Below, piece by piece: positions 12,287 through 27,282 of a stretch of 64,000 bases of DNA. Both the position numbers and the translations under genes were made by a program. This DNA is from Arthrobacter sp. ISL-5. GTDB taxonomy: Bacteria; Actinomycetota; Actinomycetes; Actinomycetales; Micrococcaceae. Each line of letters opens with the position of its first letter. Position 1 is the stretch's first letter. Under the pieces are notes generated by a model. That model was given only the letters and a program-made list of their open reading frames with translations. It made no database searches and was not told the origin of the DNA. The stretch is taken from the NCBI RefSeq assembly GCF_018613835.1, contig NZ_JAGGPM010000019.1:1-64000 (forward strand). Reading direction: 5' to 3'.

Positions 12287-12383
12287 GGTGCCGATTCGGC
12301 CCCGTCAGGCGGCCGGCCACCTGGATCAGCAGACAGGCCCCACTGAGCTGGAACGCATCGGCACGCTCAGACAGGAACCGCAC

Positions 12384-13757
12384 ATGGCCCAGACAATTTT
12401 CCGTCCCTCCGAACGCCGGCTCTGGATCCGGAATCCGCTCGCCGCCTACTCCGCCAACGGCCTTGACGCCTCCGGGGGCGTGGTGGTCCGCGGGGGCCGG
12501 ATCACCGAGGTGCTGGGTTCAGGCGAGCATCCGTCCGCGCCCTGCGACGAAACATTCGACGCCGGCAACCACGTCCTGCTGCCCGGCCTGATCAACAGCC
12601 ACCACCACTTCTACCAGACGCTGACCCGCGCCTGGGGGCCGGTGGCCAACGCTCCCCTGTTTCCGTGGCTGCAGAACCTCTATCCGGTATGGGCCCGGCT
12701 CACGCCGCGGGACCTCGAGCTCGCCGCCACGGTGGCGCTCGCCGAGCTCCTCCTGTCGGGCTGCACCACGGCGGCGGACCACCACTACCTGTTTCCGGCG
12801 GGCATGGAGGACGCCGTAGACATCGAAGTGCGGGCCGTCCGCCGGCTGGGGATGCGCGCCATGCTGACCCGCGGCTCCATGGCACTGGGAGAGAGCGACG
12901 GCGGCCTGCCGCCGCAGTCCACCGTTCAGGCGGCGGAGGTGATCCTGGCGGACAGCGAACGGCTGGTCCGCGAGTACCACGAGCGCGGCGACGGCGCCGT
13001 GATCCAGATCGGGCTGGCTCCGTGTTCGCCGTTTTCGGTGACCAAGGAAATCATGGCCGAGAGCGCCTTGATGGCCGAACGGCTGGACGTCCGGCTGCAC
13101 ACACACCTGGCCGAGACCGTGGACGAAGAGAAGTTCTGCCGCGACATGTTCGGGCTGCGGACCGTCGACTACCTCGACAGCGTGGGCTGGCTGACGGACC
13201 GGACCTGGCTCGGCCACGGCATCCATTTCAGCGATGCCGAGATCGCCCGGCTGGGAGCCGCGGGCACCGCCGTCGCGCACTGCCCAACCTCGAACATGCG
13301 CCTGGCTTCGGGCATTGCCCGGGTGCTGGAACTGGAGGACGCGGGTGTCCCCGTGGGGCTGGGAGTGGACGGATCGGCGTCGAACGATGCCTCGAACATG
13401 ATCCTCGAGGCGCGGCAGGCGCTGTGCCTGCAGCGGCTGCGCTACGGGGCGCAAGTCCCGGTGGAGCGGGCACTGGGCTGGGCAACGCGCGGGTCGGCGG
13501 CGGCGCTGGGCCGGACGGACCTCGGCCAGCTGGCACCAGGCATGCAGGCCGATCTGGCCCTCTTCAAGCTCGATGACCTGCGGTTCTCAGGCAGCCACGA
13601 TCCCCTCGCCGCATTGTTGCTGTGCGGTGCGGACCGTGCCGACCGGGTGATGGTGGGCGGGGAATGGCGCGTCGTGGACGGGCAGATCCCGGGACTGGAC
13701 GTGGCCTGGCTGATCGCGGAGCACTCGGCCGCGGCGCGGCGGCTCGTCGCCGGCTAG
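12384..13757 (+). CDS. 8-oxoguanine deaminase (amidohydrolase superfamily)
   Basis: A 457-residue TIM-barrel metal hydrolase. Metal ligands are visible in LPGLINSHHHFYQTLTRAW, HTHLAET, WLGHGIHF and the aspartate of GLGVDGSASNDASNMI. The family hydrolyses 8-oxoguanine to urate plus ammonia; related members act on other aromatic bases, but the HHHFYQTLTRA signature and neighbours favour this call. Its product would feed the uricase encoded 2 kb downstream. The ATG at 12384 follows AGGAACCG; the open frame extends 32 codons upstream without a better start. Confidence 0.85.
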   Translation: MAQTIFRPSERRLWIRNPLAAYSANGLDASGGVVVRGGRITEVLGSGEHPSAPCDETFDAGNHVLLPGLINSHHHFYQTLTRAWGPVANAPLFPWLQNLYPVWARLTPRDLELAATVALAELLLSGCTTAADHHYLFPAGMEDAVDIEVRAVRRLGMRAMLTRGSMALGESDGGLPPQSTVQAAEVILADSERLVREYHERGDGAVIQIGLAPCSPFSVTKEIMAESALMAERLDVRLHTHLAETVDEEKFCRDMFGLRTVDYLDSVGWLTDRTWLGHGIHFSDAEIARLGAAGTAVAHCPTSNMRLASGIARVLELEDAGVPVGLGVDGSASNDASNMILEARQALCLQRLRYGAQVPVERALGWATRGSAAALGRTDLGQLAPGMQADLALFKLDDLRFSGSHDPLAALLLCGADRADRVMVGGEWRVVDGQIPGLDVAWLIAEHSAAARRLVAG

Positions 13758-15572: not shown

Positions 15573-15608
15573 AATGAGCTGACATCAACTGATGTCGGCT
15601 CATTTTTT
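15573..15608 (+). terminator. Strong intrinsic terminator/attenuator in the uricase leader
   Basis: A 15-bp stem with one T-G wobble (AATGAGCTGACATCA pairing with 15590-15604), a tiny loop and TTTTTT directly after. It lies about 95 bases upstream of the uricase ATG and far from the end of any plus-strand gene (the polymerase stops at 15131), so it may act as an attenuator. A small second hairpin (CGCGTG-GGAAA-CACGCG) follows at 15631-15647. The rest of 15311-15699 holds no gene I can support. Confidence 0.7.
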
Positions 15609-15699
15609 GTTGGGTCGACGGGACAAGAAACGCGTGGGAAACACGCGCTTAATTTCACTGTGGAACTTTGATTCCACTTACGGAAGTTGGGAACTGACC

Positions 15700-16608
15700 A
15701 TGAGCAACAACATCGTCCTCGGCAACAACCAGTACGGCAAAGCCGAAGTCCGCGTCGTCAAGATCACCCGGGACACCGATCGCCACGAGATCGAAGACCT
15801 GAACGTCACCTCGCAGCTCCGCGGGGACTTCGCCGCGGCGCACCTCGAAGGCGACAACGCCCACGTCGTGGCCACGGATACGCAGAAGAACACCATCTAC
15901 GCTTTCGCCCGCGACGGGATCGGCTCACCCGAAGCCTTCCTGCTGCGCCTCGGCGAGCACTTCACGTCCAGCTTCGAGTGGGTCACCGGCGGACGCTGGG
16001 AAGCAGAGTCCTACCGCTGGGACCGCATCCAGGCCCACGGCAGCGCGCACGACCACTCCTTCGTGCGCAGCGGCCAGGAGGTCCGCACCGCGGTCCTGGT
16101 CCGCGACGGCGCCGCCACCCACCTCATCTCGGGGCTCAAGGACCTGACCGTGCTGAAATCCACGCAGTCCGGTTTCGTTGGCTACCCGAAGGACAAATAC
16201 ACCACGCTGCCGGAGACCACGGACCGGATCCTCGCCACCGACGTTTCCGCCCGCTGGCGCTTCAAGGCAGGAACCGACTTCAACTCGCTGGACTTCAACA
16301 AGAACTACGAGGACGTCAAGGCGCTCCTGCTCGAAGGCTTTACCGAGAAGTACTCGCATGCCCTGCAGCAGACGCTTTTCGACATGGGCACCAAGGTCCT
16401 CGAGGCGCACAACGAGATCGAGGAGATCAGGTTCTCGATGCCCAACAAGCACCACTTCCTGGTTGACCTCTCGCCGTTCGGCCTCGACAACCCCAACGAG
16501 GTCTTCTTCGCCGCCGACCGCCCGTACGGCCTAATCGAGGCCACAGTCCAGCGTGACGATGCCGCGCCGGCAGAGGTCGCCTGGTCCGGCATCGCCGGTT
16601 TCTGCTAA
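15700..16608 (+). CDS. pucL: Urate oxidase (uricase)
   Basis: A 302-residue cofactor-free oxidase that converts urate to 5-hydroxyisourate. It has the tandem T-fold layout: GKAEVRVVKITRD at the N-terminus, the TDTQKNTIYAFAR segment with the catalytic Thr, the SFVRSGQEVRT region, the FVGYPKDKYTTLPETTDRI motif and the C-terminal half beginning near YSHALQQTLF. Length matches the family. The ATG at 15700 is the first Met after a long leader; the frame is open earlier without a credible start. It is followed by a nested hairpin and a purine permease on the same strand. HIU hydrolase and OHCU decarboxylase are not adjacent. Confidence 0.95.
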   Translation: MSNNIVLGNNQYGKAEVRVVKITRDTDRHEIEDLNVTSQLRGDFAAAHLEGDNAHVVATDTQKNTIYAFARDGIGSPEAFLLRLGEHFTSSFEWVTGGRWEAESYRWDRIQAHGSAHDHSFVRSGQEVRTAVLVRDGAATHLISGLKDLTVLKSTQSGFVGYPKDKYTTLPETTDRILATDVSARWRFKAGTDFNSLDFNKNYEDVKALLLEGFTEKYSHALQQTLFDMGTKVLEAHNEIEEIRFSMPNKHHFLVDLSPFGLDNPNEVFFAADRPYGLIEATVQRDDAAPAEVAWSGIAGFC

Positions 16609-16746: not shown

Positions 16747-16770
16747 ATGAACCAAGAAAGTCTGCCATGA
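16747..16770 (+). other. Seven-codon leader ORF (MNQESLP) coupled to the permease start
   Basis: ATG 16747 reads seven codons and stops with TGA at 16768-16770, overlapping the permease ATG as ATGA. GAAGGCG precedes it, whereas the permease start itself has only AAGAAAG. The leader comes from a direct duplication: GTCTGCCATGAAC occurs twice, and TTGTTAGCCAGAC occurs twice just upstream. Translation is inferred. Confidence 0.4.
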
Positions 16771-18248
16771 ACACGAAGAAGAAAGTCCGCCCAGCGGCAG
16801 CCCGCCCCGAAGACCAGAAACTGCCCATCGGCAGCACCTTCGCCTACGGGTTCCAGCACGTTCTCACCATGTACGGGGGCATCATTGCCCCGCCGCTGAT
16901 CATCGGTGCGGCCGCCGGCATGTCCTCGCAGGACATCGGCCTGCTGATCGCCGCCTGCCTGTTCGTCGGCGGCCTGGCCACGATCCTCCAGACCGTCGGC
17001 ATCCGATTCTTCGGATCCCAGCTGCCCCTCGTCCAGGGCGTCTCCTTTGCGGGCGTTTCCACCATGGTGGCGATCGTCCACGGCGGCGGAGGCATCCAGG
17101 CGGTCTTTGGCTCGGTCATCGCGGCTTCGCTGATCGGGCTGCTGATCACGCCGCTGTTTTCCAAGATCATCCGATTCTTCCCGCCTGTGGTCACGGGCAC
17201 GGTGATCACCACCATCGGCCTGACACTGATGCCGGTCGCGGCCAACTGGGCCATGGGCGGCAACAGCAAGGCGCCGAACTATGGCAGCGTGGCCAACATC
17301 GGCCTGGCCGCGGCGACCATGGCGATCGTCCTCCTGCTCAGCAAGGTCGGCAGTGCCGCGATCTCCCGGCTCTCCATCCTGCTGGCCATGGTGTTGGGCA
17401 CGGTGATCGCCGTCGCCTTCGGAATGGCTGATTTCTCCAAGGTGGGCCAGGGCGAAATCGTGGCCTTCCCGACGCCATTCGCGTTCGGCGCCCCCACGTT
17501 CGAGATCGCCGCGATCGTCTCCATGCTGATCGTCATCCTGGTGACCCTCACGGAGACCTCAGCGGACATCATTGCCGTGGGCGAGATCGTGGGCACCAAG
17601 GTGGACTCCAAGCGGATCGGCGACGGCCTGCGGGCGGACATGCTCTCCAGCGCCATCTCCCCGCTGTTCAACTCCTTCACCCAGAGCGCGTTCGCCCAGA
17701 ACGTGGGACTAGTGGCCATCACGGGCGTCAAGAGCCGGTTCGTGGTCAGCGCCGGCGGCCTGATCCTCGTCGTCCTTGGCCTGCTGCCGGTGCTTGGCCG
17801 GGTGGTCGCAGCGGTGCCGACTCCCGTCCTGGGCGGCGCCGGCGTCGTACTCTTTGGAACGGTTGCCGCCAGCGGCATCCGGACGCTTGCCAAAGTGGAG
17901 TACAAGAACAACATGAACCTGATCATCGTGGCGGCGTCCATCGGCTTCGGCATGATTCCCATCGCCGCCCCGGCGTTCTACGACCAGTTCCCCTCCTGGT
18001 TCGGCACCATCTTCCACTCGGGCATCAGCTCGGCCGCGGTCATGGCCATCCTGCTGAACCTCCTGTTCAACCACCTCAAGGCCGGCAACTCGGAGAACCA
18101 GTCGGTGTTCGTGGCCGGAACGGGGCGCGTGGTCCGTGAGGAGGATCTGAAGTGCCTGGCCGACGGCGACCGCTACGAGGGCGGCAAGCTGATCGACTGC
18201 GACGGCAACGAAGTCCCGGTCCAGTCCTCCACAACGTCGGAGCACTAA
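16767..18248 (+). CDS. NCS2-family xanthine/urate permease
   Basis: A 493-residue integral membrane symporter with about 12-14 hydrophobic helices. The family signatures are GFQHVLTMYGGIIAPPLIIG near the start, QTVGIRFFGSQLPLVQGVSF and the NCS2 motif region TETSADIIAVGEIVG. It resembles the UraA/PbuX/UacT branch; a position next to uricase favours urate or xanthine. The C-terminal 60 residues are hydrophilic (VREEDLKCLADGDRYEGG). Translation may be coupled to the mini-ORF that overlaps its start. It ends before a perfect 23-bp hairpin. Confidence 0.9.
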   Translation: MNTKKKVRPAAARPEDQKLPIGSTFAYGFQHVLTMYGGIIAPPLIIGAAAGMSSQDIGLLIAACLFVGGLATILQTVGIRFFGSQLPLVQGVSFAGVSTMVAIVHGGGGIQAVFGSVIAASLIGLLITPLFSKIIRFFPPVVTGTVITTIGLTLMPVAANWAMGGNSKAPNYGSVANIGLAAATMAIVLLLSKVGSAAISRLSILLAMVLGTVIAVAFGMADFSKVGQGEIVAFPTPFAFGAPTFEIAAIVSMLIVILVTLTETSADIIAVGEIVGTKVDSKRIGDGLRADMLSSAISPLFNSFTQSAFAQNVGLVAITGVKSRFVVSAGGLILVVLGLLPVLGRVVAAVPTPVLGGAGVVLFGTVAASGIRTLAKVEYKNNMNLIIVAASIGFGMIPIAAPAFYDQFPSWFGTIFHSGISSAAVMAILLNLLFNHLKAGNSENQSVFVAGTGRVVREEDLKCLADGDRYEGGKLIDCDGNEVPVQSSTTSEH

Positions 18249-19340: not shown

Positions 19341-20903
19341 ATGACAGAGTCCGCAATGGCCGCAGCCCGGGTTGAAACGACCGCCCGCGCCGGCCAGCTC
19401 CCCGATTACGATCCCCAGCTCAGCAACGAGGACCTCGTACCGCTGCAGAACCAGCGCTGGACCAGCTACAACCTGTTCGCCTTCTGGATGTCAGACGTCC
19501 ACAGCATCGGCGGCTATGTCACCGCAGGAAGCCTCTTTGCGCTCGGCCTGGCCAGCTGGCAGGTCCTGGTAGCCCTGCTGGTCGGCATCGTGATCGTCAA
19601 CGTCTTCTGCAATCTCGTGGCCAAGCCCAGCCAGCTCACCGGCGTCCCGTACCCCGTCATCAACCGGGCAGTCTTCGGCGTCAAGGGCGCCAACATTCCG
19701 GCCATTATCCGCGGGTTGATCGCAGTGGCCTGGTACGGCGTCCAGACCTTCCTTGCGTCGGAGGCGCTGGTGATCGTCTTCCTGAAGTTCTTCCCCAGCA
19801 TGGCACCGCTGTACGACGTCGAGCAGAACGGCTTCCTGGGGCTCTCCGCACTCGGCTGGATCTGCTACGGCATCCTCTGGGTGGCCCAGGCCGCGCTCTT
19901 CTGGAACGGCATGGAGAGCATCCGCAAGTTCATCGACTTCGCCGGCCCCGCCGTCTACGTGGTGATGCTGGTCCTGGCCATCTACCTGGTCTCGCAGGCC
20001 GGCATCGGCAACATCAGCCTGAGCCTGTCCAGCGGTGAACCCCTGGACTTCGCGGCCTCCATCCCCGTGATGATCTCCGCAATCGCCCTGGTGGTGTCCT
20101 ACTTCTCCGGCCCGATGCTCAACTTCGGTGACTTCGCTCGCTACGGCAAGAGCTACCAGGCGGTCAAGAAGGGCAACTTCCTGGGGCTGCCGGTGAACTT
20201 CCTGTTCTTCTCGCTCCTGACCGTCATCACCGCTTCCGCGACCATCCCGGTTTTCGGCCGCCTCATCACGGACCCGGTCAAGACCGTCCAGGAAATCGAC
20301 ACGGTGTTCGCCGTACTGCTCGGCGGACTCACCTTCGTCATCGCCACCGTGGGCATCAACATCGTCGCCAACTTCATCTCACCGGCGTTCGACTTCTCCA
20401 ACGTCAGCCCGCAGAAAATCAGCTGGCGGGCAGGCGGCATGATTGCCGCCGTCGGCTCTGTCATCCTGACCCCGTGGAACTGGTACTCCAACAACGATGC
20501 CATCCACTACACGCTAGGCGTCCTGGGCGCGTTGATCGGGCCTCTGTTCGGCATCCTGATCGCCGGGTACTACGTGGTCAGTCGCCAGAAGGTGTGGGTG
20601 GATGACATGTACACGCTGAAAGCCACCGGCCGGTACTGGTTCCGGAACGGCTACAATCCGAACGCCGTCAAGGCCGTGGCCATCAGCGGAGCAGTCTCCA
20701 TCGCTTCTGTGCTGATCCCCAAGATCCTGCTCGACACCGGCGCCACCTCCGTGAACGCCACGTGGATAGGGAACTACAGCTGGTTCCTCGGATGCGCTCT
20801 CGGCTACTTCGCCTTCTGGGCCCTGGAGCGCAAGACCCCGATGATCTCGCTCGAACCCACCGGCGAGGAGATCGGCACCGTCAGCGACGGAACACTGGTC
20901 TAG
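19341..20903 (+). CDS. NCS1-family permease (allantoin/purine/cytosine type)
   Basis: A 520-residue membrane symporter with about 12 hydrophobic segments. NCS1 signatures include LQNQRWTSYNLFAFWMSDVH near the N-terminus, GVPYPVINRAVFGVKGANIP and NWYSNNDAIHYTLGVLGALI late in the protein. Members move allantoin, hydantoin, uracil or cytosine with Na+ or H+. Position upstream of the IclR/ureide operon suggests allantoin or a related purine product, but the substrate is inferred. Promoter-proximal palindromes probably bind the preceding RpiR regulator. Confidence 0.9.
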   Translation: MTESAMAAARVETTARAGQLPDYDPQLSNEDLVPLQNQRWTSYNLFAFWMSDVHSIGGYVTAGSLFALGLASWQVLVALLVGIVIVNVFCNLVAKPSQLTGVPYPVINRAVFGVKGANIPAIIRGLIAVAWYGVQTFLASEALVIVFLKFFPSMAPLYDVEQNGFLGLSALGWICYGILWVAQAALFWNGMESIRKFIDFAGPAVYVVMLVLAIYLVSQAGIGNISLSLSSGEPLDFAASIPVMISAIALVVSYFSGPMLNFGDFARYGKSYQAVKKGNFLGLPVNFLFFSLLTVITASATIPVFGRLITDPVKTVQEIDTVFAVLLGGLTFVIATVGINIVANFISPAFDFSNVSPQKISWRAGGMIAAVGSVILTPWNWYSNNDAIHYTLGVLGALIGPLFGILIAGYYVVSRQKVWVDDMYTLKATGRYWFRNGYNPNAVKAVAISGAVSIASVLIPKILLDTGATSVNATWIGNYSWFLGCALGYFAFWALERKTPMISLEPTGEEIGTVSDGTLV

Positions 20904-21065: not shown

Positions 21066-21821
21066 TCAGTTCTGGTTGAGCTCGTCCGAGATCGCCTGGG
21101 CTGCTTCGCGGAGCAGCGGCACGGCACGGTCGGCGAAGGACTGGTCCACGCGGGACACCGGCCCGGACACCGAGATGGCCGTCGGCGTCGGGGCGTTGGG
21201 CACGGCCATGGCGAAGCAGCGGACTCCGAGCTCCTGCTCCTCCTCGTCAATGGAGTAGCCGCGCTCGCGGATGCGGTTCAGGTCCGCAATAAGGGAATCG
21301 AAGTCGCCGATGCTCTTGGGCGTGGGCGTGGGCATTCCCGTCCGGGTGACGATCCCGCGGACCACCTCGTCGTCCAGCTGCGCCAGGATGGCCTTGCCCA
21401 CGCCGGTGTCATGGGTGTGCGCGCGGCGGCCCACCTCGGTGAACATGCGCATGGAGTGCAGCGACGGCACCTGGGCCACGTAGATCACCATGTCCGAGTC
21501 GAGCACGGCCATGTTGGAGGTCTCGCCCAGCCGGTCCACGAGGGACTTCAGCTGCGGCCGCGCTAGGGCGCCGAGCTGCTTGTTGGCGCCTTCGCCGAGC
21601 CGGATCAGCCGCGGGCCGAGTGCGTAGCGGCGGTTGGGCAGCTGGCGGATGTAGCCCAGCGTGACCAGGGTGCGCAGGAGCCGGTGGATCGTCGGCAGGG
21701 GCAGATCCGTCGAGGAGGAGAGTTCACTGAGCGTGACGTCGCCGCCGGCGTCGGTGATCAGTTCCAAAAGTTCAAAGACGCGCTCAACCGACTGCACGCC
21801 TCCGGGGGCTTTTTCAGCCAT
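21066..21821 (-). CDS. IclR-family regulator (AllR-like)
   Basis: A 251-residue regulator. The N-terminal winged helix has VTLSELSSSTDLPLPTIHRL and is followed by a C-terminal effector domain with GETSNMAVLDSDMVIYVAQV and the HTHDTGVGKAILAQ and CFAMAVPN motifs typical of IclR/AllR/KdgR. AllR-type members sense glyoxylate or allantoin and repress ureide genes; being divergent from the malate synthase/AllE operon makes that the best guess. The ATG at 21821 has CAGGAG eight bases upstream; the open frame begins 15 codons earlier without one. Confidence 0.9.
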   Translation of the reverse strand: MAEKAPGGVQSVERVFELLELITDAGGDVTLSELSSSTDLPLPTIHRLLRTLVTLGYIRQLPNRRYALGPRLIRLGEGANKQLGALARPQLKSLVDRLGETSNMAVLDSDMVIYVAQVPSLHSMRMFTEVGRRAHTHDTGVGKAILAQLDDEVVRGIVTRTGMPTPTPKSIGDFDSLIADLNRIRERGYSIDEEEQELGVRCFAMAVPNAPTPTAISVSGPVSRVDQSFADRAVPLLREAAQAISDELNQN

Positions 21822-21937
21822 GTAGCAATCTCCTGCTTGCTCGGTTCCGACAACTCTTATCCGCATCGTGAAAAGAACTGCTTAGAAAGCCAAAGATACA
21901 GCACCGCAACGCCGGCGTCGATGCGCCCCCGGGGGCT

Positions 21938-21971
21938 TGTGTTTCCATAAAGTAGATAATAATATCCATAA
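21938..21971 (+). promoter_or_regulatory. Promoter with direct repeat TCCATAA, candidate IclR operator
   Basis: TTGTGT (21938) and TAATAT (about 21960) form a plausible promoter in a strikingly AT-rich patch. TCCATAA occurs at 21944-21950 and 21965-21971, exactly 21 bp (two helical turns) apart. It lies in the divergent gap between the IclR gene and malic enzyme. Confidence 0.45.
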
Positions 21972-22031
21972 TACGAAAACATTCATCGGAATGAACCAGC
22001 CCAGCGATGGGCCCAAACAGGAGGACATTCA

Positions 22032-23510
22032 ATGGCGAACCCGAGCCCCGGAAATTCGATCACCTTGCGCGTGGAAGCGCCGTCCAGCTTCTCCGCCACC
22101 AGCGAACTCGCCGCCGCCGTGGGCGCAGCCGGCGCGGCCATCACCGCATTGGACGTCACCGAGTCGCACCACGAAACACTCGTTGTTGACGTCACCTGCA
22201 ACACCACCGACGACGACCACGCCAACCGCGTGAAGGACGCCCTCAACGCGCTCGACGGCGTCACGGTCCGGAACGTCTCGGACCGCACCTTCCTCATGCA
22301 CCTGGGCGGCAAGCTCGAGGTCGTCCCCAAGGTGGCCCTGCGCAACCGTGACGACCTCTCCCGCGCCTACACTCCCGGCGTCGCGCGCGTCTGCCTTGCC
22401 ATCGCGGAGAACCCCGACGCCGCCCGGAACCTGACGGTCAAGCGGAACACCATCGCCGTGGTCACCGACGGCTCGGCCGTCCTGGGCCTGGGCAACATCG
22501 GCCCGGCCGCGGCGCTTCCGGTCATGGAGGGCAAGGCCGCCCTGTTCAAGCAGTTCGCCAACGTGGACGCCTGGCCGGTCTGCCTGGACACCCAGGACAC
22601 CGAAGAAATCATCAAGATCGTCAAGGCCATCGCCCCCGTGTACGGCGGCGTGAACCTCGAGGACATTGCGGCCCCGCGCTGCTTCGAGATTGAGAACCGG
22701 CTCCGCGAGGAGCTGGACATCCCCGTGTTCCACGACGACCAGCACGGCACCGCAATCGTCACCCTGGCAGCCCTCGTCAACGCGCTCCGCGTCGTGGGCA
22801 AGAAGCTCGACGAGGTCCGGATCGTGGTCTCCGGCGTGGGCGCGGCGGGTTCGGCCATCATCCAGCTGCTCAAGGCCCAGGGCGCGCGGCACATCGTGGC
22901 CGCCGGCCGCTCCGGCGCCATCCACTCCGGCGAGCAGTACAACGACGAGCACCGCAGCTGGATTGCCGCCAACACCAATGAGGAGGGCTTCTCCGGAACC
23001 CTGCACGAGGCACTCAAGGGCGCCGACGTGTTCATCGGCGTCAGCGCCCCGCACGTGATCGGCGAGGAGCAGGTTGCCTCGATGGCCAAGGACGCGATTG
23101 TTTTCGCCATGGCCAACCCGACGCCGGAGATCGATCCCGCCGTCGCGTCCAAGCATGCCGCCGTCGTGGCCACGGGCCGCAGCGACTTCCCGAACCAGAT
23201 CAACAACGTGCTGGCCTTCCCGGGATTCTTCCGCGGGCTCCTGGACGCCGGGGCGTCGGACATCACGCCCGAGATGCTGGTGGCCGCGGCCGAGGCCATT
23301 GCCAACCGCGTTGCTGACGACGAGCTCAACGCAAGCTACATTATCCCCAGCGTCTTCGACCCCCACGTGGCCGCGGACGTCGCAGCAGCAGTCGCCGCCG
23401 CAGCCCAGGCCGCAGCCGGCGTCCGCACGTCACCGGCGGCATCGGGGGACACAATGGAAGCAGCAGCATCTGCAGCCGCAAACACAGCAGCAGCCTTCGC
23501 CAACGCCTGA
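22032..23510 (+). CDS. NAD-dependent malic enzyme with N-terminal ACT-like domain
   Basis: A 492-residue enzyme that oxidatively decarboxylates malate to pyruvate. Residues 8-80 resemble an ACT regulatory domain (SITLRVEAPSSFSATSELAA). The catalytic part has SRAYTPGVARVCLAI, VTDGSAVLGLGNIGPAAALP, the metal site FHDDQHGTA and the Rossmann motif VVSGVGAAGSA. The tail after about residue 455 is Ala-rich. GGAGG precedes the ATG. As first gene of the operon with malate synthase and AllE it drains malate formed from glyoxylate. Confidence 0.93.
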   Translation: MANPSPGNSITLRVEAPSSFSATSELAAAVGAAGAAITALDVTESHHETLVVDVTCNTTDDDHANRVKDALNALDGVTVRNVSDRTFLMHLGGKLEVVPKVALRNRDDLSRAYTPGVARVCLAIAENPDAARNLTVKRNTIAVVTDGSAVLGLGNIGPAAALPVMEGKAALFKQFANVDAWPVCLDTQDTEEIIKIVKAIAPVYGGVNLEDIAAPRCFEIENRLREELDIPVFHDDQHGTAIVTLAALVNALRVVGKKLDEVRIVVSGVGAAGSAIIQLLKAQGARHIVAAGRSGAIHSGEQYNDEHRSWIAANTNEEGFSGTLHEALKGADVFIGVSAPHVIGEEQVASMAKDAIVFAMANPTPEIDPAVASKHAAVVATGRSDFPNQINNVLAFPGFFRGLLDAGASDITPEMLVAAAEAIANRVADDELNASYIIPSVFDPHVAADVAAAVAAAAQAAAGVRTSPAASGDTMEAAASAAANTAAAFANA

Positions 23511-23536: not shown

Positions 23537-25135
23537 ATGGCTATCACAGTCACAGACCCCCGGCCGATCGAGCGCGCGGAGGAGATCCTCACCCCTAAGG
23601 CGCTGGCCTTCGTGGAGGAACTCCACAAGCGCTTCGCCGGCACCCGCTCGGACCTCCTCAAGGCCCGGGCCGCCAAGCGCGAGCATGTGGCCCGGACCGG
23701 CAGCCTGGATTTCCTGCCGGACACCCAGGACGTGCGCGACGGCGACTGGAAGGTCGCGCCGGCGCCGGCGGCCCTGCGGGACCGCCGGGTTGAGATGACG
23801 GGCCCCGCCTCCCCGGCGAAGATGGCCATCAACGCGCTGAACTCCGGCGCCAAGGTGTGGCTCGCGGACCTCGAGGACGCGAGCACCCCCACGTGGGCCA
23901 ACGTCATCGACGCCATCCTGAACCTCCGCGACGCCGCCACGGGAACACTGAGCTACACCTCCCCCGAGGGCAAGGAGTACCGGCTCCGTACCGACGCCCC
24001 GCTGGCCGTGGTGGTGGCCCGCCCCCGCGGCTGGCACATGGAGGAACGGCACCTGCTGATCGACGGCGCACCCGCCATGGGTGCCCTGGTGGACTTCGGC
24101 CTGCACTTCTTCCACATCGCCAAGCAGCTGGTGCTGAACGGCCAGGGCCCGTACTACTACCTGCCCAAGATGGAAAGCCACCTCGAGGCCCGCCTCTGGA
24201 ACGAGGTCTTCGTGTTCGCGCAGGACTTCCTGGGCATCAACCAGGGCACCATCCGCGCCACCGTGCTGATCGAGACCATCCCGGCTGCCTTCGAGATGGA
24301 CGAGATCCTCTACGAAATCCGCGACCACGCCTCCGGGCTGAACGCCGGCCGCTGGGACTACCTGTTCAGCATCATCAAGTACTTCCGCGACGCCGGCGCC
24401 AGCTTTGTGCTGCCGGACCGGGCCACGGTGGCCATGACCGCGCCCTTCATGCGTGCCTACACGGAACTGCTGGTCAAGACCTGCCACCACCGCGGCGCCT
24501 TCGCGATGGGCGGCATGGCCGCGGTCATCCCGAACCGGCGCGAGCCCGAAGTCACCGCACAGGCCTTCGAGAAGGTCCGAGCGGACAAGACCCGCGAAGC
24601 GAACGACGGCTTCGACGGCTCCTGGGTGGCGCACCCGGACCTCGTCCCGGTCTGCAAGGAAGTGTTCGACTCGGTCCTCGGGGACCGTCCCAACCAGCTG
24701 GACAAGCAGCGCCCGGAAGTTTCCGTGACCGCGGGCCAGCTGCTGGACATCGCCTCCGCCGACGGCCAGGTCACGGAAGCGGGCCTGCGCCTGAACCTGT
24801 ACGTCGCGGTCGCCTACACGGCCGTATGGATCTCTGGCAACGGTGCGGTGGCCATCCACAACCTGATGGAGGACGCCGCCACGGCCGAGATCTCCCGCTC
24901 GCAGGTGTGGCAGCAGATCCGCAACGAGGTGGTCCTCGCCGACACCGGCAACACGGTGACGCGCGAACTGGTCACGAAGATCCTGGCCGAGGAGACCGAG
25001 AAGCTGCGCGGCGAGGTGGGCGAAGTAGCGTTCCAACGCTACTACCAGCCGGCCAGCACCCTGATCGCGGACATCTGCCTTTCCGAGGACTACACGGACT
25101 TCCTCACCACCCCGGCCTACGAACTGGTGGGCTGA
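23537..25135 (+). CDS. aceB: Malate synthase A
   Basis: A 532-residue enzyme that condenses glyoxylate with acetyl-CoA to malate. The signatures are ITVTDPRPIERAEEILTPKA at the N-terminus, MTGPASPAKMAINALNSGAK, WLADLEDASTPTW, the catalytic Arg region VVVARPRGWHMEERH and the magnesium-binding VLIETIPAAFEMDEILYE. Length matches AceB. No isocitrate lyase lies beside it, and its operon partners are malic enzyme and AllE, so its glyoxylate probably comes from ureides rather than the glyoxylate shunt. It starts 26 bases after malic enzyme. Confidence 0.95.
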   Translation: MAITVTDPRPIERAEEILTPKALAFVEELHKRFAGTRSDLLKARAAKREHVARTGSLDFLPDTQDVRDGDWKVAPAPAALRDRRVEMTGPASPAKMAINALNSGAKVWLADLEDASTPTWANVIDAILNLRDAATGTLSYTSPEGKEYRLRTDAPLAVVVARPRGWHMEERHLLIDGAPAMGALVDFGLHFFHIAKQLVLNGQGPYYYLPKMESHLEARLWNEVFVFAQDFLGINQGTIRATVLIETIPAAFEMDEILYEIRDHASGLNAGRWDYLFSIIKYFRDAGASFVLPDRATVAMTAPFMRAYTELLVKTCHHRGAFAMGGMAAVIPNRREPEVTAQAFEKVRADKTREANDGFDGSWVAHPDLVPVCKEVFDSVLGDRPNQLDKQRPEVSVTAGQLLDIASADGQVTEAGLRLNLYVAVAYTAVWISGNGAVAIHNLMEDAATAEISRSQVWQQIRNEVVLADTGNTVTRELVTKILAEETEKLRGEVGEVAFQRYYQPASTLIADICLSEDYTDFLTTPAYELVG

Positions 25136-25138
25136 GGC

Positions 25139-26473
25139 ATGGCGGTACCCTCAGGTTCCCTCAGCCCCAACGATCTTGCGCAGATCGACGCCCAGCTGGC
25201 CCCAACTGACCAGCTGCTGGAGCAGAACTACCCCGGCGACGACGGCTCCCGCCAGCCCGTCCACACCGTCTACGTCCCCGCGGACCGTTTCACGCCGTCG
25301 CTCGCCTCTGAATGGGGCGCCCAGGCGCTCGCGACGGCGGACGCCCACGGCGGCCTCGACCGGCTGGGCCACCTGCTGGGCCAGGACGCAGAACTCGCCG
25401 AGGCGGTTGCGTCACGTGTCCAAGCGAAGCTGGAAAGCGAACCGATCGAGGACCTGCGCCTTGACTTCGAGGACGGGTTCGGGGATAGGGGCGACGACGC
25501 CGAGGACGCCGCCGCTGTTGCTGCGGCTTCCGCCGTGGCCGCCGCAGTTGCGGCCGGCACAGCGCCCCCGTTCATCGGCATCCGTTTCAAGTGCTTTGAG
25601 GCGGCCACCCGTGCCCGCGGCCTGCGAACGCTGGACCTGTTCGTCTCCGGCCTGGCCGCCGCGGGCGAGCTGCCGCAGGGCCTGATCCTCACCCTGCCCA
25701 AGGTCACCACCGTGGCGCAGGTCAGGGCCATGGACTTCGCCGTCTCCCGACTGGAGGAAGCGCACTCGTTTCCGGCGGGCCGGCTGCGGTTCGAGGTGCA
25801 GGTGGAGACGCCGCAGCTCATCCTGGGCCCGGACGGCACGTCACCGGTGGCGCAGCTTGCGCACGCTGTCCCAGGCAGGATCAGCGGCCTGCACTACGGC
25901 ACGTACGACTACAGCGCCTCGCTGCAGATCTCGGCCGAGTACCAGTCCATGGAGCATCCCGTGGCCGACTTCGCCAAGGAAGTCATGCAGCTGGCTGTGG
26001 CTGGTACGGGCATCCGCCTTTCGGACGGTTCCACCAACATCATTCCGGTGGGCGACGCCGTGGAGGATGCCTGGAAACTGCACGGGCGGCTGGTTCGCCG
26101 CTCGCTGGAGCGGGGCTACTACCAGGGCTGGGACCTGCACCCGGCCCAGTTGCCCAGCCGTTTCGCGGCGACCTACGCGTTCTACCGCCAAGGGCTGCCG
26201 GCCGCGGCGGCCCGGCTGCGCAACTACGTGGACCGCACCGAAGGCGGGGTCATGGACGAGCCCGCCACCGCCCGGGCGCTGGCCGCATTCGTGCTGCGCG
26301 GCGTCCAGTGCGGCGCCGTGGGCGCCGAAGACGTCCAGGCGCTTGCCGGCGTGGGGGTCCCCCAACTCACCGGGCTGGCCCACCCAAGGCTGGCCCAGTC
26401 CTCCCTGGCCGAGTCCTCACTTGCCGAGTCCGGCCTGTCCCGCATCTCCAACTCCCAAGGAGCCCATTCATGA
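25139..26473 (+). CDS. HpcH/HpaI aldolase/citrate-lyase-like protein of unknown reaction (probably DUF6986)
   Basis: A 444-residue TIM-barrel protein. The acidic motif IEDLRLDFEDGFGDRGDDAE and the metal-binding stretch LRFEVQVETPQLILGPDG resemble HpcH/HpaI and CitE-like lyases. ISGLHYGTYDYSASLQI and YQGWDLHPAQLPSRFAATYA are further conserved-looking blocks. It starts 3 bases after malate synthase and overlaps allE by ATGA, so it is a committed operon member. The natural reaction is not known to me; aldol or lyase chemistry on a glyoxylate-derived or ureide substrate is an inference. The C-terminus has three SLAES-type pentapeptides. Confidence 0.8.
   Translation: MAVPSGSLSPNDLAQIDAQLAPTDQLLEQNYPGDDGSRQPVHTVYVPADRFTPSLASEWGAQALATADAHGGLDRLGHLLGQDAELAEAVASRVQAKLESEPIEDLRLDFEDGFGDRGDDAEDAAAVAAASAVAAAVAAGTAPPFIGIRFKCFEAATRARGLRTLDLFVSGLAAAGELPQGLILTLPKVTTVAQVRAMDFAVSRLEEAHSFPAGRLRFEVQVETPQLILGPDGTSPVAQLAHAVPGRISGLHYGTYDYSASLQISAEYQSMEHPVADFAKEVMQLAVAGTGIRLSDGSTNIIPVGDAVEDAWKLHGRLVRRSLERGYYQGWDLHPAQLPSRFAATYAFYRQGLPAAAARLRNYVDRTEGGVMDEPATARALAAFVLRGVQCGAVGAEDVQALAGVGVPQLTGLAHPRLAQSSLAESSLAESGLSRISNSQGAHS
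26387..26431 (+). repeat. 15-bp tandem repeat, three copies, at the 3' end of the aldolase gene
   Basis: Codons for RLAQS, SLAES and SLAES in consecutive 15-bp units. The two SLAES units share most bases. Confidence 0.75.
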
Positions 26474-27282
26474 GCAACTATTTCTACCCCGAAGGCGGCC
26501 TGCCGCCGCAGACGCAGCTCCTCACGGACCGGGCCGTGGTCAAGGAGGCCTACACGGTCATCCCCAAGGGCGTGCTGCGGGACATCGTCACCAGCAACCT
26601 TCCCGGCTGGACCAACACCCGCGCCTGGATCATCGCCCGGCCCATCGCCGGCTTCGCCACCACGTTCTCCCAGCTCATTGTTGAGGTGGCACCCGGCGGC
26701 GGATCCCGGAAGCCCGAAGCAGAGGCCGGCGTCGAAGGCGTCGTCTTCCTCACCAAGGGCAAGCTGGACCTGAGCCTCGACGGCGAAATCCACCACCTCG
26801 AAGAGGGCGGCTACGCCTACCTCGCTGCCGGCGCCGACTGGTCCGTCAAGAACGACTCCGACGACATCGCCAGCTTCCAGTGGGTCCGCAAAGCCTACGA
26901 GCCGCTGGAAGGCTTCACCGCAAAGTCCTTCGTGACCCGCGACCAGGATGTGGAGCCGCGGCCGATGCCCGGAACCAACGGCGCCTGGGCCACCACCCGG
27001 TTCGTGGACCCGGACGACATGGCGCACGACATGCACGTCAACATCGTCACCTTCCAGCCCGGCGCGTCCATCCCGTTCGCCGAGACCCACGTCATGGAGC
27101 ACGGCCTTTTCGTCCTCGAAGGCAAGGCCGTCTACCGGCTCAACGACGACTGGGTTGAAGTGGAGGCCGGCGACTTCATGTGGCTCCGCGCCTTCTGCCC
27201 GCAGGCCTGCTACGCCGGCGGCCCGGGCAACTTCCGCTACCTGCTGTACAAGGACGTCAACCGGCAGATCCGCCTGACCTAG
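26470..27282 (+). CDS. allE: (S)-ureidoglycine aminohydrolase
   Basis: A 270-residue bicupin that hydrolyses (S)-ureidoglycine to (S)-ureidoglycolate and ammonia, a manganese-dependent step of the ureide pathway. It starts MSNYFYPEGGLPPQTQLLTD, has the N-terminal cupin block GVVFLTKGKLDLSLDGE and the C-terminal cupin with the metal site ETHVMEHGLFVLEGKAVY. Length and ends match AllE. The ATG overlaps the aldolase stop (ATGA). Allantoinase, allantoicase and ureidoglycolate lyase are absent here, so the pathway must be completed elsewhere. Confidence 0.93.
   Translation: MSNYFYPEGGLPPQTQLLTDRAVVKEAYTVIPKGVLRDIVTSNLPGWTNTRAWIIARPIAGFATTFSQLIVEVAPGGGSRKPEAEAGVEGVVFLTKGKLDLSLDGEIHHLEEGGYAYLAAGADWSVKNDSDDIASFQWVRKAYEPLEGFTAKSFVTRDQDVEPRPMPGTNGAWATTRFVDPDDMAHDMHVNIVTFQPGASIPFAETHVMEHGLFVLEGKAVYRLNDDWVEVEAGDFMWLRAFCPQACYAGGPGNFRYLLYKDVNRQIRLT

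Follow-up and report, generated by a model that had tools for sequence, protein, structure and literature searches.

We analyzed a window of 64,000 nt, meaning the whole stretch from position 1 to 64,000 of an Arthrobacter sp. ISL-5 contig (NZ_JAGGPM010000019.1), in which a gene for a DUF6986 protein lies in an operon of ureide breakdown. The genes and features of the window considered here are:

12288-13757, + strand: 8-oxoguanine deaminase-type amidohydrolase, purine catabolism (NF006055, 677 bits)
15592-16608, + strand: uricase, urate to 5-hydroxyisourate (TIGR03383, 376 bits)
16767-18248, + strand: NCS2 xanthine-type permease (TIGR03173, 512 bits)
19341-20903, + strand: NCS1 permease, purine/allantoin kind (PF02133)
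21066-21866, - strand: IclR-family regulator, divergent to the operon (PF01614, PF09339)
21942-21980, no strand: conserved operator-like stretch between the IclR and malic enzyme genes (recurring 8-mers)
22032-23510, + strand: malic enzyme, malate to pyruvate (PF00390, PF03949)
23537-25135, + strand: malate synthase A (TIGR01344, 743 bits)
25139-26473, + strand: DUF6986 protein, proposed ureidoglycolate lyase (PF22484, 611 bits; invariant residues, model, and fold)
26470-27282, + strand: AllE-type bicupin (500 bits against the (S)-ureidoglycine aminohydrolase model)

The DUF6986 ORF is intact and encodes 444 aa from an ATG start codon. The stop codon TGA of malate synthase A (25133-25135) is followed by the three bases GGC and then by the ATG at 25139, and the DUF6986 stop codon TGA (26471-26473) overlaps the start of allE in the sequence ATGA. 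The ORF coordinates thus bear out the spacing given in an earlier note on this DNA, and its naming of the neighbors as AllE, malate synthase, and malic enzyme is upheld by the scores and profiles listed above. The AllE-type cupin is also above the cut-off of the NCBI model "bifunctional allantoicase/(S)-ureidoglycine aminohydrolase". Within the operon the bicupin is expected to supply ureidoglycolate and malate synthase A to consume glyoxylate. The malic enzyme is extended at its N-terminus by a stretch that weakly resembles an ACT domain (15.7 bits, below the cut-off) and is possibly regulatory.

Profile searches showed that the rest of the genome encodes allantoinase (566 bits), HIU hydrolase, urease, and urea carboxylase. 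The allA gene (PF04115), which the earlier note had proposed to look for, gave no match in the whole genome. With OHCU decarboxylase left out of the search, ureidoglycolate cleavage is the only step examined between urate and glyoxylate that has no known gene. As for amidohydrolases, three M20 proteins score above allantoate-amidohydrolase models (there is also one short fragment match), and no ureide genes were recognized among their scanned neighbors. One of the three has formimidoylglutamate deiminase as its neighbor, another lies near a type III glutamine synthetase and a glutamate-synthase-type protein, and the remaining one is near methylmalonate-semialdehyde dehydrogenase.

By profile the protein is a member of DUF6986 (PF22484), with 611.2 bits against a cut-off of 27 and residues 21-417 aligned to positions 2-407 of the 408-position profile. 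The earlier description of the gene as HpcH/HpaI-like holds for the fold (see below) and fails for the profile, PF03328 reaching 17.1 bits against a cut-off of 25. Neither AllA (PF04115) nor Peptidase_M20 (PF01546) matched the protein at E ≤ 1, no Pfam malate synthase domain was matched in it, and a PDB search with the single sequence gave nothing useful (best E 0.11). When a profile was built from 37 DUF6986 sequences picked for spread out of 101 loci, malyl-CoA lyase was found at E 3.6e-5, and profile comparison aligned the family with the operon's own malate synthase A at E = 1.2e-4. On these sequence profiles malate synthase A is a distant homologue of DUF6986. The AlphaFold model (pLDDT 87, pTM 0.83) has the TIM barrel plus C-terminal domain of the CitE-like/malyl-CoA lyase proteins (4L80/4L9Y), and its best Foldseek matches were CitE-like proteins and malyl-CoA lyase (E 4e-9 to 6e-9). 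It superimposes on 4l80_B with Z 26.6 and rmsd 3.2 over 305 aligned residues, on 4l9y_A (with glyoxylate) with Z 26.5 and rmsd 3.1 over 290, and on a malate synthase A structure with Z 25.7.

According to PMC3832036, the residues D42, E44, D45, R76, E141, D168, and D299 (R. sphaeroides numbering) are conserved in the superfamily, with one group having Asn for D42 and another Glu for D299. The counterparts of these seven residues in DUF6986 are D109, E111, D112, R149, E223, D257, and D373, all invariant in the 37 aligned sequences. E223 and D257 were placed by profile alignments. For D109, E111, D112, and R149 the basis is a motif together with a single weak profile alignment (3r4i, E 0.058), and for D373 it is the likeness, by eye, of MDEPATA to MEDAATA of malate synthase. 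Other invariant residues are specific to the family and include Q39, H252, Q269, H273, Q329, W331, and D332; they are candidates for holding a ureido group.

Next, we surveyed 296 Actinomycetes genomes from 114 genera. DUF6986 was counted at E ≤ 1e-40 because an earlier PF22484 survey had found near full-length matches (379 bits or more) in only 25 of 113 matching genomes; the matches in the other 88 were weak and for the most part covered only a portion of the profile, resembling CitE-type paralogues, with the exception of genome G013, which has genuine-looking fragments. AllE was counted only above its curated cut-off (19 of 65 matching genomes). With these thresholds DUF6986 is present in 106 genomes, allantoicase (PF03561) in 93, and AllE in 19, and no genome among the 296 has allantoicase and AllE together. 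All DUF6986 genomes except one (105/106) encode a producer of ureidoglycolate, either allantoicase (86) or AllE (19). Conversely, DUF6986 is found in 105 of the 112 genomes with allantoicase or AllE (Fisher p 2e-70, overstated as kinship is uncorrected). At the genus level, 40 of 40 DUF6986 genera have allantoicase or AllE (p 4e-30 over 114 genera, which kinship again makes overstated), and a single further genus, g8, has allantoicase without DUF6986. Since allantoicase and AllE are unrelated and have ureidoglycolate as their common product, this co-occurrence points to the ureidoglycolate step. In the DUF6986 tree a single change, on a branch of weak support (57), explains the allantoicase/AllE label, and the idea of many independent swaps from allantoicase to AllE was dropped for this reason. 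Genus g13, which has both types, seems to have received an AllE-type cluster.

AllA was above the cut-off in four of the 296 genomes, and one match is strong. The strong one (about 82-85 bits) is in G389, a genome without DUF6986, allantoicase, or AllE. There a genuine AllA gene (L142:9313-9894) is directly followed by a xanthine-dehydrogenase-type molybdenum subunit. Two further matches, in G378 (33 bits) and G288 (28 bits), were set aside as probable cupin look-alikes, with no ureide gene recognized around them (L144, L145), and the fourth is a 26-bit match in G468. The lone DUF6986 genome without allantoicase or AllE is G422. The seven allantoicase genomes without DUF6986 comprise five of genus g8 (G038, G074, G429, G552, and G560) and two of genus g220 (G310 and G530). 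The absence from G310 may be an assembly gap, because the contig with its allantoicase cluster ends about 1 kb past the HIU hydrolase gene. In the five g8 genomes neither a full-length DUF6986 nor AllA was found; PF22484 gave weak, partial matches in G038 (36 bits) and G074 (41 bits). Ureidoglycolate must therefore have another fate in this genus. In the g8 loci L138, L140, and L141 (G038, G074, and G560) allantoicase adjoins a polysaccharide-deacetylase (PuuE-like) protein, and none of the three has DUF6986 or AllA. L140 has an aminotransferase and urease nearby, and L141 looks alike. At L139:7402-10321 (G038) a 2OG-Fe(II) oxygenase-family protein comes after an allantoinase-allantoicase pair, at the place that DUF6986 takes in other genomes.

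The gene neighborhoods tell the same story at closer range. Among the window's close kin (the best 80 of 558 related loci), 78 have AllE no more than 200 bases downstream of DUF6986 and 71 have malate synthase no more than 150 bases upstream of it; the operon arrangement is not due to chance. In the full set of 119 DUF6986 loci, which includes these 80, at least one of six ureide genes was found in 107 and allantoicase or AllE in 100, counting the fetched flanks only. The 12 loci without a ureide gene are L115, L116, L117, L127, L149, L150, L152, L153, L154, L160, L161, and L166, and four of them are urease-linked. The diverged loci L128, L129, L131, and L133 share the order allantoinase, allantoicase/OHCU decarboxylase, HIU hydrolase, uricase, and DUF6986. 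As these loci have one activity for each other step, only ureidoglycolate cleavage remains for DUF6986. Locus L126 reads DUF6986, uricase, OHCU decarboxylase, HIU hydrolase, allantoinase, AllE, and no M20 gene was recognized in this cluster when gene starts alone were read; its pathway is complete only if the cupin accepts allantoate itself or an allantoate amidohydrolase is encoded elsewhere. An AllE-type cupin (as at 26470-27282, in L126, and in L148) may indeed make ureidoglycolate from allantoate alone, given that AllE and allantoicase exclude each other, that L126 has no recognized M20 gene, and that the NCBI model is named "bifunctional". Two plasmids carry related arrangements. In Tsukamurella the DUF6986-AllE pair occurs with xanthine dehydrogenase, guanine deaminase, and allantoinase, and in Paenarthrobacter DUF6986 is flanked by an NCS1 permease and a polysaccharide-deacetylase protein, presumably a PuuE-type allantoinase.

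Urease genes adjoin DUF6986 in five loci. In L165 (genome G247) allantoinase, allantoicase, OHCU decarboxylase, HIU hydrolase, uricase, DUF6986, ureA, ureC, and ureG are co-directional (the ureA-ureC gap, where ureB is expected, was left out of the reading). On plasmid p174 of Gordonia polyisoprenivorans (L150) DUF6986 is directly before urease gamma, beta, and alpha, ureF, ureG, and ureD, and same-strand urease genes follow it in L153, L154, and L166 (UreA unmatched in L166). The five loci belong to two lineages far apart in the phylum, with family f6 and Gordonia on one side and family f31 on the other. This linkage points to urea as a product of DUF6986. We had expected urease or urea carboxylase in every AllE genome, and this expectation failed: urease alpha was matched in 9 of the 19 (G000 is among the 19; one match is marginal) and urea carboxylase was above the cut-off in two, none of them among the ten genomes without a urease alpha match. 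The result counts against urea as the product, less heavily in view of the loci linked to urease; AllE genomes without urease may excrete urea or use it in another way. On p174 a PaaI-family thioesterase gene (L150:8522-8956), ahead of the urease genes, overlaps the DUF6986 start by 4 bases, an overlap that would suit a CoA substrate and counts against a lyase.

Regulation was examined in eight genomes of genus g7, which appears to be Streptomyces-like from its malate synthase-IclR-allB-allantoicase cluster (L143). Three g7 loci were read, two of them (L115 and L117) cut off by a contig edge, and no recognized ureide gene lies alongside DUF6986 in them. When the DUF6986 upstream region of genome G193 was compared with those of allB and malate synthase, the palindrome TTCCGTACAGCGGAA ranked first, with two mismatches of 16 to the allB upstream region and four to that of malate synthase. 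The pattern TTCCG-N5-CGGAA is found near the unlinked DUF6986 start in seven of the eight genomes (five with exact arms, two with one mismatch) and was not found there in G171. The longest possible DUF6986 ORF of G193 and G107 includes the site, which is probably upstream of the likely start. The IclR-allB spacer has the exact site in L143 and L172 and the site with one mismatch in L167, L169, and L171; it is absent from this spacer in L170, and L168 has no site anywhere, IclR and allB also not being found there. Exact sites number 8-21 per 7-10 Mb genome, against 0-5 for the reversed pattern, which by our arithmetic makes a chance match in a given 200-base promoter about 3 in 10,000. The IclR-family regulator beside allB is probably AllR of Streptomyces coelicolor, as a citation in PMC12772271 suggests. 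Of 67 IclR-malic enzyme spacers in Micrococcales, most of them from close kin, 51-58 share 8-mers of the conserved stretch. The right part of 21942-21980 (TATCCATAATACGAAAAC) resembles the Streptomyces-type site by eye, and the stretch gave neither an exact nor a one-mismatch match to that pattern. Over the window the pattern does not occur exactly; allowing one mismatch gives 17 occurrences where 5.8 would be expected, and the operon's promoter has none of these.

We concluded that DUF6986 is most likely, as far as sequences and a predicted model can tell, a Mg2+-dependent ureidoglycolate lyase (the EC 4.3.2.3 reaction) that replaces AllA and is not an AllA homologue. The earlier note had left open whether the aldolase fills the step from ureidoglycolate to glyoxylate, bypasses it, or works beside it; the co-occurrence, the clusters including those with urease, the promoter site, and the glyoxylate/Mg-type residues favor the first of these. 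From the observed family, co-occurrence, clusters, shared promoter site, predicted fold, and residues we infer the substrate, products, metal, and residue roles.

The main competing explanation has DUF6986 as an acyl-CoA or 2-oxoacid aldolase that consumes or releases glyoxylate after ureidoglycolate has decayed or been hydrolyzed in another way. It would account for a fold and catalytic residues of the malyl-CoA lyase/malate synthase kind, for the shared operon with malate synthase in most Micrococcales loci, and for the thioesterase gene on p174. We consider it unlikely, as the disposal of glyoxylate near DUF6986 varies (malate synthase and malic enzyme, both with Gcl, malic enzyme with Gcl, or none), yet DUF6986 is kept whichever route is nearby. 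Gcl is clustered with DUF6986 in L059, L060, L062, and L079, and none of malate synthase A, malic enzyme, and Gcl was found nearby in L126, L128, L129, L131, and L133 (malate synthase G was left out). An aldolase of this type also leaves the five urease links aside, and nearly all of the 40 genera would have no AllA gene to deal with ureidoglycolate, unless a hydrolase outside the survey acts.

It is still less likely that an M20 ureidoglycolate amidohydrolase encoded elsewhere releases two NH3, CO2, and glyoxylate and that DUF6986 is accessory to it. The tight co-occurrence of DUF6986 would then be left without explanation, the neighbors of the three M20 proteins in the ISL-5 genome are those described above, and no M20 gene was recognized in L126 from gene starts. 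In favor of such an enzyme are these three proteins themselves, which could include a ureidoglycolate amidohydrolase, and the ten of 19 AllE genomes without a urease alpha match. Least probable of all is an upstream role (on 5-hydroxyisourate, OHCU, allantoin, or allantoate) or that of a non-catalytic partner, which is conceivable in that operon membership alone does not define a step and the allantoate step in L126 has no classical gene nearby, but which conflicts with the presence of HIU hydrolase, OHCU decarboxylase, allantoinase, and allantoicase beside DUF6986 in L128, L129, L131, and L133 and with the invariance of the Mg/glyoxylate-type residues.

For a ureidoglycolate lyase, the chemistry could follow that of the relatives closely. 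Ureidoglycolate, HO-CH(COO-)-NH-CO-NH2, is malyl-CoA, HO-CH(COO-)-CH2-CO-SCoA, with NH in place of CH2 and NH2 in place of the thioester. In the proposed mechanism E223 and D257 would hold Mg2+ (with waters held via E111 and D112), and the 2-hydroxy-carboxylate of ureidoglycolate would chelate the metal. R149, oriented by D109, would accept the hydroxyl proton, the C-N bond would be cleaved as has been proposed for the C-C bond of malyl-CoA, and D373 of the C-terminal part would protonate the leaving urea, which is released in place of an enolate. The products would be glyoxylate and urea, and glyoxylate would pass to malate synthase and malic enzyme here and perhaps also to Gcl in related clusters. 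DUF6986 is likely to be the ureidoglycolate lyase of Actinomycetota in general. As a member of the malate synthase/malyl-CoA lyase superfamily it would break a C-N bond, and it would have been recruited for the likeness of its substrate to malyl-CoA, of which ureidoglycolate is the aza-analogue. To our knowledge it would be the first breaker of a C-N bond in this superfamily.

Actinobacteria often carry genes for urate and allantoin breakdown, and in the literature found the gene that releases glyoxylate from ureidoglycolate is without assignment; in the genome paper of Arthrobacter strain Rue61a the ureidoglycolate-to-glyoxylate gene was not assigned. A full-text search for "DUF6986" returned no paper within a coverage that excludes most subscription journals. 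Among the matches listed for ureidoglycolate cleavage, no title or abstract start gives the reaction to an aldolase-type protein, and a prior assignment may exist in the subscription journals, which were mostly outside the search. According to PMC3793230, which also includes a continuous AllA assay, nitrogen is released from ureidoglycolate by AllA/DAL3 (urea, nickel) or UAH (ammonia), with the dehydrogenase AllD besides. If the lyase assignment is true, the last unassigned step of purine degradation would be closed in dozens of genera. With a name, what is now a domain of unknown function would become an enzyme family, and the ureide pathway would be complete in 40 of the 114 sampled genera. 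Annotations as "aldolase/citrate lyase family protein" would be corrected, and a well-studied superfamily would gain a further bond type.

Compared with known systems, DUF6986 resembles malyl-CoA lyase (R. sphaeroides MCL, 4L9Y; C. aurantiacus MCL, 4L80) in its predicted fold and in having counterparts to the seven catalytic residues that PMC3832036 describes, and its proposed reaction likewise frees glyoxylate from a 2-hydroxy acid. It differs in sequence (16-20% identity), in its own invariant residues listed above, and in a proposed substrate without CoA in which no C-C bond is cleaved. With malate synthase A it shares the metal ligands and a W..HP stretch that align (DUF6986/malate synthase E223/E246 and D257/D274), whereas its length is 444 residues against 532. 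UAH (EC 3.5.3.19), which we take to be an M20-family enzyme, acts on ureidoglycolate, the substrate proposed for DUF6986; unlike DUF6986, which has no M20 match, it frees ammonia. The proposed overall reaction is that of the nickel-dependent AllA/DAL3 (PF04115, EC 4.3.2.3), with Mg2+ expected in DUF6986 rather than Ni2+. Thus DUF6986 is outside the AllA family and very probably works like AllA.
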